A stretch of DNA of 39,297 bases from a virus. The notes below the pieces were generated by a model. It was given only the letters and a program-made list of their open reading frames with translations, searched no databases and was not told the origin of the DNA. The stretch covers positions 1 through 39,297 of IMG/VR virus record IMGVR_UViG_3300010885_005287. One strand, written 5' to 3'. Shown here in pieces: positions 34,166-39,297 of the stretch. The position numbers and the translations under genes were made by a program. Each line of letters begins with the position of its first letter. Positions within the stretch are counted from its first letter, which is position 1.

Positions 34166-34420
34166 ATGGACTGGCAGAACCTAATCAATTTCGGCGCGGG
34201 TGCTTTGCTCGCAATAGGCGGATGGTTTTGCCGCCAGTTATGGGATTCGGTCAAAGAACTCAAGACCGACATTTCTGATCTTAAATTGCACGTCAGCGAT
34301 TCGTATGTCAAAAAGTCTGAGATCGACACAATTAAAGGCGATATGGATAAGCGTTTTGACCGTATTGAAATGCTGCTTGACCGTCTGTTTGACAAACTTG
34401 AATCGAAGGTAGACAAATAA
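34166..34420 (+). CDS. Membrane-anchored coiled-coil protein, lysis-region
   Basis: An 84-residue protein with one N-terminal transmembrane helix (LINFGAGALLAIGGWFCRQL) followed by a coiled coil (about 28-84, KKSEIDTIKGDMDKRFDRIE). It starts 1 base after the preceding stop and overlaps the holin start by one base. Such proteins in lysis cassettes may be spanin-like, holin partners or antiholins. No lipobox or Rz1-like gene is nested within it that I can see. Confidence 0.7.
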   Translation: MDWQNLINFGAGALLAIGGWFCRQLWDSVKELKTDISDLKLHVSDSYVKKSEIDTIKGDMDKRFDRIEMLLDRLFDKLESKVDK

Positions 34421-34794
34421 TGGATCCGATTACCCTACTCGCAGCCCTTGGCCCGTTGGCCGTCGATCTTGGCAAGTCCTTAATCGGGCGTTTTATTCAG
34501 ACAGACGTATACAAACCAACCAATATCGCCGAGTATACGCAGATGCGTCAGACCGACTTAGCCATGTTCCAAGCGATGAACAACGCAGGGGCGGGCGGCA
34601 GCACTTACCCTTGGGTCGAGGCAATCGTGCGCCTCATGCGCCCTGCGGTGGGTGCCATTGTGTTGGGTACATGGAGCTTTATGATGCTCACAGGTCAAGA
34701 CAACCCAGCGGTTAACAATTTTGCTAGCGCCGTGGGTTTCTACCTGTTCGGCGACCGCACTTTGTTCTATTCACAGAAAACAAATGCAAAGTAA
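34420..34794 (+). CDS. Holin, GTA 3-TM type
   Basis: A 124-residue protein of the 3-TM holin superfamily. There are hydrophobic stretches at about 4-24, 70-92 and 99-112. The pattern YPWVEAIVRLMRPAVGAIVL and AVGFYLFGDRTLFYSQK (GDRTL hallmark) is typical. It would open the inner membrane at the end of infection so the adjacent endolysin can reach peptidoglycan. It overlaps the endolysin start by 11 bases. Confidence 0.85.
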   Translation: MDPITLLAALGPLAVDLGKSLIGRFIQTDVYKPTNIAEYTQMRQTDLAMFQAMNNAGAGGSTYPWVEAIVRLMRPAVGAIVLGTWSFMMLTGQDNPAVNNFASAVGFYLFGDRTLFYSQKTNAK

Positions 34795-35317
34795 CTTTGC
34801 CAAAGCCTTTAGCCTTATGCTGCAAAGCGAAGGTGGCTTTTCCGATAACCCCGCCGACACCGGCAACCACCTACCCGATGGCCGCATGGGCTGCACCAAC
34901 CTTGGTGTCACGCAAACCGCATGGGAAGAGTATGTCGGGCACAAGGTCAGCACGCAAGATATGCGTAACCTGACACCCGCCACGGTCATGGATTTTTATA
35001 AGCGCCGCTACTGGGACACGGTTAAGGGCGACTCCCTACCCAATGCGTTGGACTACCTCGCCTTCGATATGGCGGTCAACTCGGGCGTGGGGCGCTCGAT
35101 CAAATTGATGCAACGTGCCGTGGGTGCCACAGAAGATGGTGCGCTTGGCCCCTTGACCATCGAAGCAATTAGCAGTTGGTCAATACGTCAATTGATTGAA
35201 AAGTTCAGCAACGCCAAAGCAGATTTTTACAAGTCTTTGAATAACGCTACCTTTCAAAAAGGATGGCTAAACAGGGTCGAGCACACTAAAGCCAACGCAC
35301 TGGAGATGTTAACGTGA
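34784..35317 (+). CDS. Endolysin, glycoside hydrolase family 108 (muramidase)
   Basis: A 177-residue protein. The start is chosen as ATG 34784, giving MQSNFAKAFSLMLQSEGGFS with the family's catalytic Glu16 in the EGG motif close to the start, as is usual. A longer frame reaches 34721 but lies within the holin. TNLGVTQTAW (about 38-47), YKRRYWD, and DMAVNSGVGRSIKLMQRAVG (peptidoglycan-binding type 3 region) follow. No signal peptide, so release depends on the holin. It is coupled to the next gene through a GTGA overlap. Confidence 0.92.
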   Translation: MQSNFAKAFSLMLQSEGGFSDNPADTGNHLPDGRMGCTNLGVTQTAWEEYVGHKVSTQDMRNLTPATVMDFYKRRYWDTVKGDSLPNALDYLAFDMAVNSGVGRSIKLMQRAVGATEDGALGPLTIEAISSWSIRQLIEKFSNAKADFYKSLNNATFQKGWLNRVEHTKANALEMLT

Positions 35318-35847
35318 AATTTTTAATTTTATTTTTGCTAACCTTTAGCGCACAAGCGCAGACCATCGCAGTCTGCAAGGGCGAGTACGCGCTTTGCGCT
35401 GCGTCACCTACCACGCTCACCGGCAAGACCATCAGCGTACAGGGCAAGACTTTTAAAGAAGGCGTGGCAGTCTGCCCCGTGCTGACCGGCATGGCGGTCG
35501 CCAACATGGATTTGATGCAAGGCTCTTGCGACGCGCCCAAGGGTAAGGTATGGTCGCTCTTCGGTGTGCCGCCACAGACTGCATATCCCCAGGCACCCGA
35601 TTGGTCGGTACAACCCGCCGTGTTTAGGTCATTCAAAGTGGGTGACACGCCCACGACCGGAATGTCCAATATGTGGTCGTTCTTATGCACCAAGCAAACC
35701 AAGCAAGTTGCGGGCGTAACGCTCGCCTCTTGCTACGGGCCGGTGATGGAAAGCCCGTGGACTGGGCACCATGTGGTGCCTGGGGAAACAGCGTTCACCC
35801 AAGCACCTGCCGGTTCAACTTACCCTGTTGGCGGTAACATACCCTAA
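35314..35847 (+). CDS. Exported cysteine-rich protein, lysis-region
   Basis: A 177-residue protein with a GTG start overlapping the endolysin stop. Residues 1-15 (MKFLILFLLTFSAQA) are a clear signal peptide with an A-Q-A cleavage site, so the protein is probably periplasmic. About seven cysteines in the mature part (such as VCKGEYALCAA, EGVAVCP, QGSCDAP, FLCTK, ASCYGP) suggest disulfides. No lipobox. I know no function: a lysis aid, superinfection exclusion or envelope-targeted factor is possible. Confidence 0.75.
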   Translation: MKFLILFLLTFSAQAQTIAVCKGEYALCAASPTTLTGKTISVQGKTFKEGVAVCPVLTGMAVANMDLMQGSCDAPKGKVWSLFGVPPQTAYPQAPDWSVQPAVFRSFKVGDTPTTGMSNMWSFLCTKQTKQVAGVTLASCYGPVMESPWTGHHVVPGETAFTQAPAGSTYPVGGNIP

Positions 35848-35944: not shown

Positions 35945-36139
35945 TTATTTGGCCAGTTTTTTGACGCAGTATTCACAATACCCTCCTAAAAGATCACTAC
36001 ACACTTGACCACACCCATCGCAGATCAACTCGGGCGGGAATGTTGGCAGGGGCTTTGGTCTTGCCCACCGCATAAAAAGCAAGACGGCAATCATCAACGC
36101 AATTGATGCGTAAACCCACATCATGATTTCGGTAAGCAT
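35945..36139 (-). CDS. Membrane-anchored zinc-ribbon-like protein (64 aa)
   Basis: An N-terminal transmembrane helix (VYASIALMIAVLLFMRW, about 9-25) is followed by a proline linker. Then CDGCGQVCSDLLGGYCEYC (Cys40, 43, 47, 55, 58) has two C-x2-C pairs, a zinc-ribbon pattern. GGAGAAGCG precedes the ATG, and the gene overlaps the upstream gene. It is last in the long minus block. The cytosolic zinc module could bind a host membrane or nucleic acid target. No family known to me. Confidence 0.75.
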   Translation of the reverse strand: MLTEIMMWVYASIALMIAVLLFMRWARPKPLPTFPPELICDGCGQVCSDLLGGYCEYCVKKLAK

Positions 36140-37250: not shown

Positions 37251-38563
37251 TTCAACGCCTCCAAGGCTATGTCAGACAACGCACGCTTGTCGTGCAACGC
37301 TGACCAAATTTTCTCATCGACGGTATCGTCGGTGAGTAGTACATAGACCCACACGTCGTGCTGTTGCCCCGAGCGGTGGATACGCCCTACGGTCTGTTCG
37401 TAGAGTTCAAGACTCCAAGGCAATGACAAAAAGACCATCCGGCAACCGCCGTGTTGCAAGTTAAGCCCGTGGCCTGCTGACTTGGGGTGGACAAGTAGCA
37501 ACTCCACTTTTCCCGCATTCCAGCGCTCAATTGCGTTTGCGTCGTCAAGGGTGATGGCGTGGGGGTATCTGCGCTTGAGTTCAGCAAGTTCTTCTTTGTA
37601 GGTGTAGGCAATGATGGTGTTGGCACGTTGGTTCTCCTCTAGTAAATCATCTAACAAATCAAACTTGTGGTGGCTCATCCAGATGCCGGTGGACGTGGTG
37701 ATAAAACTCTTCTCACCCGCCCATGTGTCGGTGTGATAGATAAAGCCTGACGCCATCTGTTGCAGTTTGCCTGTCACGACACCTGCGTTAATTGCGGCGA
37801 TCTGTACATCACCAAAGCGCAGCACAAACTCTTTCTTCATTTCCTTGTACTGCGTCATGTCCATGTCACAGCGCATCTCAACGGTGTGGCAGGGCGGCAA
37901 CTTGTCAGCGTACTCACCTGCCTCAAGCAAGTAAGTCGCCGGTTTGATACGCTCCATCACATTGCGTAGCGCGTGTGGCCTTGGCATCCACTCGCCGTAC
38001 TCGGGGTTTATCAGCACAAAGTAGGTCTGCATAAAGGCACCCTTGCTACGCCCGAGCAGCGATTGGTCAACGATCTTGCATTGCCCAAATACGTCTTCTA
38101 AGCCGTTAGAGGTAAACGATCCGGTCAGGCCCCACCGCACAGTCATGGGCTCAATAACTTTAAGCAGCGCCTTGAACCGTGCGCCCGAGGGGTTCTTTAG
38201 CCGTGTCAGTTCGTCAAACACAATCCCGTCAAAGTCTAAATACTCTTGAGCCAGCCATTGCAGATTGTCGTAATTGGTTACCACAACGCGCGCGTCAGAA
38301 TTAAGCGCCAGTAAGCGTTGCATAGGCGTACCCACGCACACGGCTATGTCAAGGTCGGGTGCCCACTTACGCGCCTCGGCTGGCCATACGCTTGTGGCGA
38401 CCCGCTTGGGCGCTAGTACAAGCCAACGGCGCACGGGTGAGGCTTGCATAGCGGTCAATGTAATCGCCGTCTTACCCGCGCCCACAGGCGCTAATACCAT
38501 AGCGCGGTCGTGTGTGCCGAGGAAGGCTGCTGCCTCAGTCTGATAAGGTCGTAATGTAAGCAT
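37247..38563 (-). CDS. SNF2-type superfamily 2 helicase
   Basis: A 438-residue protein with all main SF2 motifs: Q-like LRPYQTEAA (4-12), Walker A APVGAGKTA (25-33, Lys31), motif II VFDELTRLKN (115-124, Asp117-Glu118), motif III GLTGS (145-149), motif V HPKSAGHGLNLQ (359-370) and motif VI EQTVGRIHRSGQ (389-400). Phage members of this family lie beside VRR-NUC and PolA and are thought to help replication or fork processing as DNA translocases. It overlaps the VRR-NUC gene by 29 bases. Confidence 0.94.
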   Translation of the reverse strand: MLTLRPYQTEAAAFLGTHDRAMVLAPVGAGKTAITLTAMQASPVRRWLVLAPKRVATSVWPAEARKWAPDLDIAVCVGTPMQRLLALNSDARVVVTNYDNLQWLAQEYLDFDGIVFDELTRLKNPSGARFKALLKVIEPMTVRWGLTGSFTSNGLEDVFGQCKIVDQSLLGRSKGAFMQTYFVLINPEYGEWMPRPHALRNVMERIKPATYLLEAGEYADKLPPCHTVEMRCDMDMTQYKEMKKEFVLRFGDVQIAAINAGVVTGKLQQMASGFIYHTDTWAGEKSFITTSTGIWMSHHKFDLLDDLLEENQRANTIIAYTYKEELAELKRRYPHAITLDDANAIERWNAGKVELLLVHPKSAGHGLNLQHGGCRMVFLSLPWSLELYEQTVGRIHRSGQQHDVWVYVLLTDDTVDEKIWSALHDKRALSDIALEALK

Positions 38564-38813
38564 CTACTTGTTCCTTAGTCCATAGTGTTGTGTAGTTTTG
38601 ATTTAATTTAGCCATGTCGGCGGCAAAAATTTTTTGTAATTCTGACAATCGACCCCCCTTGGTTTTTAACTCTACAAACCATGTCGCCCCATTGGGCAAA
38701 CACGCTATACGATCAGCTACGCCTCGGTGGCTTGGCGACGTAAACTTGTACGTCTTGCCCCCTGCGCGTTCGACCGCCCATTTAAAATAATGCTCAACCT
38801 CAGATTCCTTCAT
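38535..38813 (-). CDS. VRR-NUC domain nuclease
   Basis: A 92-residue single-domain nuclease. The start is taken as ATG 38813 (MKESEVEHYFKWAVERAGGK), giving the normal length and N-terminal helix; a longer frame lies within the upstream gene. Core residues are Glu5, Asp34 in HRGVADRI, and Glu48/Lys50 in FVELKTKGGRLS, the VRR-NUC form of PD-(D/E)XK. Related proteins cut branched DNA, some as Holliday-junction nucleases. It is paired with the SNF2 helicase in the order seen in many phages. Confidence 0.92.
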   Translation of the reverse strand: MKESEVEHYFKWAVERAGGKTYKFTSPSHRGVADRIACLPNGATWFVELKTKGGRLSELQKIFAADMAKLNQNYTTLWTKEQVDAYITTLSD

Positions 38814-39297
38814 AGCGCGACACCGTCTCAAACTTCTGCTCAGGCGTAATGCAAATAGCACCGCACTCAATGTCTGGCAATGGCACATCACGCCCCGCTT
38901 TGGGGTCTAGTTCGTCTAAGAACACACGTTTGCGTTTCTTGTCACCGGCGTATGACTTGTTAATCGCCACGCCCATCTTGCGTTCTTGCTTGGCCATGCG
39001 GTCAAACGCCTCTGGAAAGTCCACACGAATCTTGTTCCAGTAACCCGCTTGACCTTTGACGCAGCCAATGCAATTGTTGTTGTTGTATCCCAACTTGTAC
39101 ATCGTAGGCAGTTCAATACCGGCCTCTTGAATGATGCGGTAACAATCTTTCTTAGTGGTGTCGTTCAATATCCACTCGACTTTGACGTCTGAGTTTTGGT
39201 CTTCAAAGCGGTCTATGCGCACAGCTTCGTCTTTGGTCAACCCAAAAATGTGCAAGTCATCAGGACGCTCGTACAGTTTGCGCACATTCTTTTTAAG
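38800..39297 (-). CDS. PAPS-reductase-like protein, C-terminal part (runs off the end)
   Basis: Continuation of the protein that begins at 390; after removing the duplicated 123 bases, 38800-39174 codes for its residues 131-254. It includes NNNCIGCVKGQAGYW (Cys165, Cys168; about 162-175) and DIECGAIC (Cys234, Cys238), common near the end of phage PAPS-reductase-like proteins and perhaps Fe-S or zinc ligands. The 3' end overlaps the VRR-NUC gene by 14 bases. Confidence 0.85.
   Translation of the reverse strand, partial: LKKNVRKLYERPDDLHIFGLTKDEAVRIDRFEDQNSDVKVEWILNDTTKKDCYRIIQEAGIELPTMYKLGYNNNNCIGCVKGQAGYWNKIRVDFPEAFDRMAKQERKMGVAINKSYAGDKKRKRVFLDELDPKAGRDVPLPDIECGAICITPEQKFETVSRYEGI
39175..39297. 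repeat. Terminal direct repeat, right copy
   Basis: Exact copy of bases 1-123; see the left copy. Counting it once gives a 39,174-bp circle. Confidence 0.95.

Follow-up and report, generated by a model that had tools for sequence, protein, structure and literature searches.

The lysis gene cluster and the CYS protein

The DNA analyzed here, called the window, is the whole stretch of 39,297 bases of the IMG/VR record IMGVR_UViG_3300010885_005287, and it belongs to a phage whose coat protein is P22-like. Judged by the capsid, its closest relatives with a name are MW202483 (77%) and DSL-LC05 (OR003940, 70%). In one related locus, L001, a match of window positions 38535-38891 is directly followed by a match of positions 478-786, so that the ends of the window adjoin as in a circularly permuted genome; thus, the window is probably a near-complete phage genome.

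The late operon ends with the plus-strand genes of an 84-aa protein, a holin candidate, an endolysin, and a secreted (as predicted) six-cysteine protein named CYS here, and opposite-strand genes lie thereafter. The 84-aa protein (34166-34420) has an N-terminal hydrophobic stretch and a coiled coil; it is termed XhlA-like by resemblance alone, and its best PHROG is 7885, of unknown function. The holin candidate (34420-34794) is 124 aa long with hydrophobic segments and forms a family of its own, weakly similar to PF11351 (hhalign probability of 44 against the PF11351-type set, covering 43 columns). Nothing was above cut-off for it in Pfam, including PF11351 (GTA_holin_3TM), or in PHROGs, and above-cut-off matches to PF11351 do occur for the holin candidates of other loci. 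The endolysin (34784-35317, where 34784 is the chosen start and 34721 is also open) matches GH108 (PF05838, 83.1 bits against a cut-off of 21.2) and PG_binding_3 (PF09374, 27.7 bits against 24.6), as well as PHROG 315 (endolysin). On the minus strand, a 64-aa ORF (35945-36139) carries a hydrophobic segment at its N-terminus and a zinc-ribbon-like CxxC...CxxC tail, and it has blastp matches near CYS in 12 of the 32 loci compared.

CYS (35314-35847, plus strand) is 177 aa long, and its GTG start overlaps the TGA of the endolysin (35315-35317) as GTGA. The N-terminus MKFLILFLLTFSAQA (35314-35358) combines a basic residue and a hydrophobic core with a final A-x-A, here A-Q-A followed by QT, and A15 is nearly invariant among 23 aligned sequences; on these features the protein is presumably exported and its signal peptide cleaved. 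The mature domain (35359-35844) would comprise 162 aa and contains all six cysteines, found at precursor positions 21, 28, 54, 72, 125, and 140. Exactly six cysteines occur in 109 of 110 distinct non-bacterial cores of the family, a count that excludes 13 ORFs missed by the search pattern. CYS is under purifying selection similar to that of the adjoining endolysin, with dN/dS of 0.08-0.10 against three relatives for the former and 0.07-0.11 for the latter, values to be read with synonymous sites saturated in 6 of 11 mature-only comparisons and near saturation in most others. The relatives of the ORF and a dN/dS of about 0.1 mark it as a conserved coding gene. The cysteine-rich protein, the signal-like start, and the GTGA coupling described by the first-pass annotation all stand, with export and cleavage as predictions.

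The mature part carries a charge of +1.9 at pH 7 (pI 8.3), its best 19-residue hydropathy is 1.47 (at mature residue 35), with no clear membrane segment, and its C-terminus (...YPVGGNIP) is polar. A first AlphaFold model, built with 23 sequences, reached a pLDDT of 77, and a second one, built from the mature part and 70 sequences, a pLDDT of 96.2 and a pTM of 0.89; the latter is all beta, with no helices of four or more residues and no coiled coil. Fold searches of the PDB with both models gave no match at E ≤ 0.001, and VIA-align gave Z 2.1 at best for the first model and none at Z ≥ 2 among 999 chains for the second. In BFVD, the weaker first model found one clear relative, A0A6J5QU59 from an uncultured phage, and a Marseillevirus LCMAC101 protein at E 0.034. 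The fold is therefore confidently predicted and without a PDB match, which does not prove it to be new. No catalytic motif was recognized in CYS, nor did any fold match point to an activity.

Relatives of CYS and their genomic context

Searches of IMG/VR returned 35 relatives of CYS with the single sequence and 457 with a profile, and a more distant profile returned 347; the loci studied were the best 80 of 457, the best 80 of 347, and, from a further search, the best 80 of 295, with a bias toward relatives of the query. The family is unnamed, as it has no curated Pfam, PHROGs, or NCBIfam match, the window protein having nothing above cut-off in any of the three. Among INPHARED phages, neither the window protein (at E 0.01) nor two distant members found a match. 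Two weak resemblances were put down to chance, namely TrbC_Ftype (PF09673), matched by 10 of 23 members with a best E of 0.009 and by the window protein with 13.8 bits (E 0.06) against a cut-off of 24.2, and oxytocin receptor matches at E 0.05-0.1. No paper was found on lysis or holins of Polynucleobacter phages, and the portions of the literature covered on morons, lysis cassettes, and cysteine-rich proteins of freshwater phages held nothing recognized as this family.

Bacterial relatives are sparse. GTDB contigs gave 11 loci with the profile and none with the single sequence. Three of them (L037-L039) have phage-type lysis neighbors, and the other eight are titled Methylococcus/Methylococcaceae, Deltaproteobacteria, beta proteobacterium, Burkholderiaceae, or Polynucleobacter; the non-phage loci that were viewed lie among bacterial genes. 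The family was found in 6 of 151 genomes of the genus of G001, with up to five copies, 2 of 299 of its family, 1 of 274 of the class of G005, 1 of 250 of the order of G006, and 11 of 145 of the class of G003, tallies that include the central genome each time, come from overlapping samples, and rest on loose first-look filters that may miss members. Twelve cysteines are present in 13 of 20 bacterial cores. A bacterial query retrieved four viral loci (L135-L138), of which both that were viewed encode the longer type, and plasmids searched with one bacterial relative at E 1e-3 gave no match.

The genomic context was sampled with one plus-strand locus per distinct sequence of the last 140 aa of CYS (117 loci). 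The tallies cover the 77 of these, window included, whose flanks reach 2 kb or more upstream and 1.2 kb or more downstream; related sequences are counted repeatedly, and only the top-scoring entries of longer lists are represented. An endolysin and/or a holin-like gene lies near CYS in 61 of these 77 loci, which upholds the lysis-operon location first assigned from the window. Both genes without Rz are present in 44 loci (the XhlA-like gene being the sole holin-like gene in nine), both together with Rz and Rz1 in 12, and a holin-like gene only in five. In these tallies, PF11351 holins were assigned by Pfam where tested, window-type holins are a separate, unassigned family, and XhlA-like is again a label by resemblance; Rz was assigned by architecture, as a membrane anchor with an overlapping lipobox ORF, since one Rz gene tested had no Pfam match and two others had weak PHROG matches.

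The cassettes show 22 gene contents or orders, as detected. When only lysin, holin-family, and Rz genes are counted, the 61 cassettes divide into 35 with CYS downstream of these genes, 18 with CYS upstream of them, and eight with CYS in their midst; with the XhlA-like gene counted as well, the figures are 35, 5, and 21. CYS is therefore not a mere passenger at the operon end. The lysins beside it are of the GH108, M15-type, GH19, and GH24-like kinds, and on a quick CYS tree of 89 rows, with weak support for 29 of its 86 inner branches, the lysin type changes at least 15 times, the holin-family/Rz label 6 times, and the cassette/elsewhere label 7 times. Even CYS proteins 85-90% identical to that of the window adjoin GH108, M15, or GH19 lysins and co-occur with the window-type holin or with Rz/Rz1, which makes a single phage protein an unlikely target.

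The remaining 16 of the 77 loci have none of these lysis genes nearby. Several of them look like large phages, in which lysis genes may be scattered, as they are in T4-like phages (PMC6139136). In one viral contig (L075:2793-5598), CYS lies in a row with a porin (PF13609) and a gene that reads as rubredoxin-like on one side and a PstS-like binding protein (PF12849) on the other. In another locus (L166:4858-6545), it stands between an SNase-like ORF, so called by reading as it has no Pfam match, and an Endonuclease_NS protein (PF01223, 131.6 bits), both with a signal-like start. The neighbors in these two loci point to other envelope roles for CYS. Around CYS in L089 and L092 there are stretches without sizeable ORFs on its strand, with short frames bearing FEPT/VRTVSNRLP-like strings, which might be tRNA clusters.

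Spanins and the companion holins

No Rz/Rz1 pair had been recognized in the window at first reading, and this holds: none of three Rz profiles matched it, and no credible lipobox ORF was found on either strand, the two antisense matches comparing with 0-3 in five mononucleotide shuffles. A similar scan beside Rz genes found Rz1 at 17 of 18 Rz loci. The first-pass annotation had gone on to place CYS where a spanin would be expected, as a replacement, and to name the 84-residue membrane coiled-coil protein as another candidate for outer-membrane disruption. Neither proposal is supported by the comparison of cassettes. A role of CYS as spanin substitute was rejected because a complete Rz/Rz1 pair stands beside it in 12 of the 77 loci and because 52 of 75 sibling cassettes have neither CYS nor Rz; in L010, the CYS of a cassette with complete Rz/Rz1 is 86% identical to that of the window. 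The 84-residue protein is indeed present, but its membrane segment is weak, since no run of 19 residues exceeds a KD of 1.3, and its family occurs in cassettes both with and without Rz/Rz1, a pattern not expected of a spanin substitute.

The siblings came from a search with the window holin candidate; of its 80 loci, 75 extend 1.5 kb or more downstream. CYS is present in 23 of these 75 cassettes, the 23 partly repeating contigs of the first set, and is found on neither strand of the examined stretch in the other 52; an Rz match occurs in none of the 75. Thus, the absence of a spanin is independent of CYS. Of the 52 siblings without CYS, 14 have a plus-strand ORF of 100 aa that begins no more than 300 bases from the lysin end, and 38 have none. 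A plus-strand lipobox scan of the 80 loci with a window-type holin gave 16 with any match and five with a proline-containing one, and none of these five was judged an o-spanin. The record of the relative DSL-LC05 is circular and complete and includes a PF11351 holin; neither CYS nor an Rz match was found in it, nor any lipobox ORF judged credible. MW202483 has a plausible o-spanin-like ORF on the minus strand, and the capsid lineage as a whole is therefore not spanin-free.

The pattern instead follows the holin. Among the 56 CYS loci with a lysin, 13 have a window-type holin, 22 a PF11351-type one, 12 Rz, and nine neither, and in none of the 35 loci with either holin type is Rz present (Fisher p 5e-7, for loci that are not independent). 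The lack of a spanin therefore goes with the holin family and not with CYS, which suggests that window-type and PF11351-type holins go with spanin-less lysis.

The properties of CYS also differ from those of the known agents of outer-membrane disruption. Like the two-component spanins Rz/Rz1, which are surveyed in PMC6139136, it would be an exported product of the lysis cassette, and its gene overlaps the end of Rz in L059, L061, L065, and L070; unlike them, the window CYS has no lipobox, no coiled coil in its model, and no anchor in its mature part. An o-spanin of the Rz1 type would have a lipobox with an acylated cysteine, and a lipobox-like MAGC was seen only in the CYS of L072 and L076 among 33 loci scanned. 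Compared with an i-spanin of the Rz type, the hydrophobic stretch of CYS is short and ends in A-Q-A, no helices are modeled, and no Rz profile matches; compared with a unimolecular spanin, CYS lacks the lipobox and ends in a polar C-terminus. The disruptin, a small cationic peptide of phiKT, is short, strongly cationic, and amphipathic, and by this definition a mature domain of 162 aa with a charge of +1.9 is not one.

Directly upstream of Rz in L010 (4199-4393), and also in L011, L019, L020, and L125, all of them Rz/Rz1 cassettes, lies the gene of a 65-aa protein with hydrophobic segments (listed as 73 aa in L019). The L010 copy matched nothing in Pfam or PHROGs at E 0.01, and the protein looks like an undescribed small holin.

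Possible roles of CYS

The explanation tentatively favored is that CYS is an optional lysis-module accessory, exported by Sec and directed at the host envelope, with its site of action in the periplasm or on the outer membrane. Its synthesis would be late and coupled to that of the endolysin; after Sec export, it would fold with disulfides as a compact all-beta domain and become free in the periplasm, or possibly beyond it, where it would act on a component of the host envelope and help or tune the final lysis of particular hosts, independently of any one phage holin or endolysin and without replacing a spanin. The clustering with lysis genes in changing order points to a role at lysis, the exchange of lysin, holin, and spanin partners to the host as the partner, the optional presence to a help needed only in some hosts, and the signal-like N-terminus with the cysteines to the oxidizing periplasm or the outside; we infer on this basis the disulfides, the host-envelope target, and the effect on lysis. 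The main difficulty lies in the 16 of 77 loci where CYS stands away from lysis genes. The explanation is weakened further by the bacterial arrays beside a secretin, which have no lysis link, by the absence of CYS from 52 of 75 sibling cassettes, by the fall of the between-lysis-genes count from 21 to 8 of 61 without the XhlA-like protein, and by the lack of a catalytic motif or fold match hinting at an activity. A more specific version, in which CYS is a soluble, disulfide-locked periplasmic domain that loosens the outer membrane or wall links beside any set of holin, endolysin, and spanin, is rather unlikely; if true, this relative of secreted bacterial proteins would represent a lysis accessory of a new type and, in cassettes without spanins, one of several ways to complete lysis.

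CYS might instead be an envelope moron for superinfection exclusion, which after late export would remain in the periplasm or at the surface, mask or alter a receptor or a DNA-entry step, and thereby keep other phages from infecting the dying cell, with the cassette as no more than a convenient late transcript. This is unlikely, yet a real possibility, as the gene is optional, its bacterial relatives are sparse, 16 of 77 loci lie outside lysis cassettes, 35 of 61 cassettes have it after the lysis genes, and in L166 it adjoins the Endonuclease_NS protein with a signal-like start; a precedent is given by the Cor/Llp outer-membrane lipoproteins, which block FhuA (PMC13164509). The window CYS has no lipobox, a point that lowers its membership in the Cor/Llp group but not an exclusion role as such. 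Its position before or between the lysis genes in 26 of 61 cassettes also speaks against this role, and the cassette preference, kept across at least 15 lysin changes, exceeds what such a moron would need. Antiholins are normally holin-specific, and the pairing of CYS proteins at least 85% identical with different holin candidates therefore counts against a periplasmic lysis regulator that, like the T4 antiholin RI, would bind the lysis machinery and delay or stabilize lysis. This role is improbable also because bacterial relatives exist outside phages, although the signal-like N-terminus, the cassette linkage, and the optional occurrence are in its favor, and the PF11351 holin TeaA of ICP1 has a non-essential antiholin (PMC7182436). 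PMC12642591 describes T4 rI as an antiholin that is soluble and periplasmic, and CYS as pictured here would share these traits and the connection with lysis. Unlike RI, CYS goes with several holin candidates; an RI-type antiholin would bind the periplasmic domain of its cognate holin, and the holin-family/Rz label changes at least six times on the CYS tree.

The place of CYS in L075, between the porin with the rubredoxin-like gene and the PstS-like binding protein, and its several copies in some bacterial genomes would fit an auxiliary metabolic gene, i.e., a host-derived secreted protein that aids nutrient uptake or binding. Only one such locus was noticed, however, and the lysis cassettes that hold CYS in 61 of 77 loci are a poor site for a function needed during infection, which makes this quite improbable. 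That CYS itself disrupts the outer membrane in the stead of Rz/Rz1 is very improbable: its signal-like N-terminus, its coupling to the endolysin, and the lack of a detected spanin in the window agree with such a function, but CYS co-exists with Rz and Rz1, sibling cassettes and the complete relative DSL-LC05 do without either, and the mature protein has no membrane anchor and only a small positive charge.

The accessory role favored here bears on how the outer membrane is opened by phages without a recognizable spanin, which make up about 13% of the phage genomes surveyed in PMC6139136. For this purpose, the cassettes with CYS and Rz/Rz1, those with CYS and no Rz, and those with neither form a comparative set. 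Environmental viruses hold a large CYS family, at 457 loci, for which no match was found in INPHARED and whose confidently predicted fold lacks a PDB match.

The nearest parallel to CYS found in the portions of published work covered is the stand-alone SH3-domain protein that 188 of 522 Drexlerviridae phages carry in their lysis module and that is proposed as a lysis auxiliary, a putative function (PMC13164509). Both are small beta proteins that are optional and linked to lysis modules. CYS, however, matches no SH3 model, also occurs outside cassettes and in bacteria, and has a signal-like N-terminus and six cysteines.

Closer in sequence are the tandem cysteine-rich proteins of Polynucleobacter (L046) and a relative (L044), which are homologous to CYS (tblastn identity of 39-40%, E 8e-20 for L044 and 4e-19 for L046) and share the motif C-x-G-E-F-A-L-C. 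They differ from it by an N-terminal linker and by their chromosomal, tandem setting, in which no lysis genes were seen. In both loci (L044:4674-9453 and L046:5456-10345), the gene of a TPR-secretin lipoprotein is followed by three family members in head-to-tail order, and a DsbA-like gene flanks them at the far end; in L046, where both neighbors were tested, the secretin matches PF00263 with 94 bits. These arrays are possibly an orphan-secretin export system with cysteine-rich substrates.
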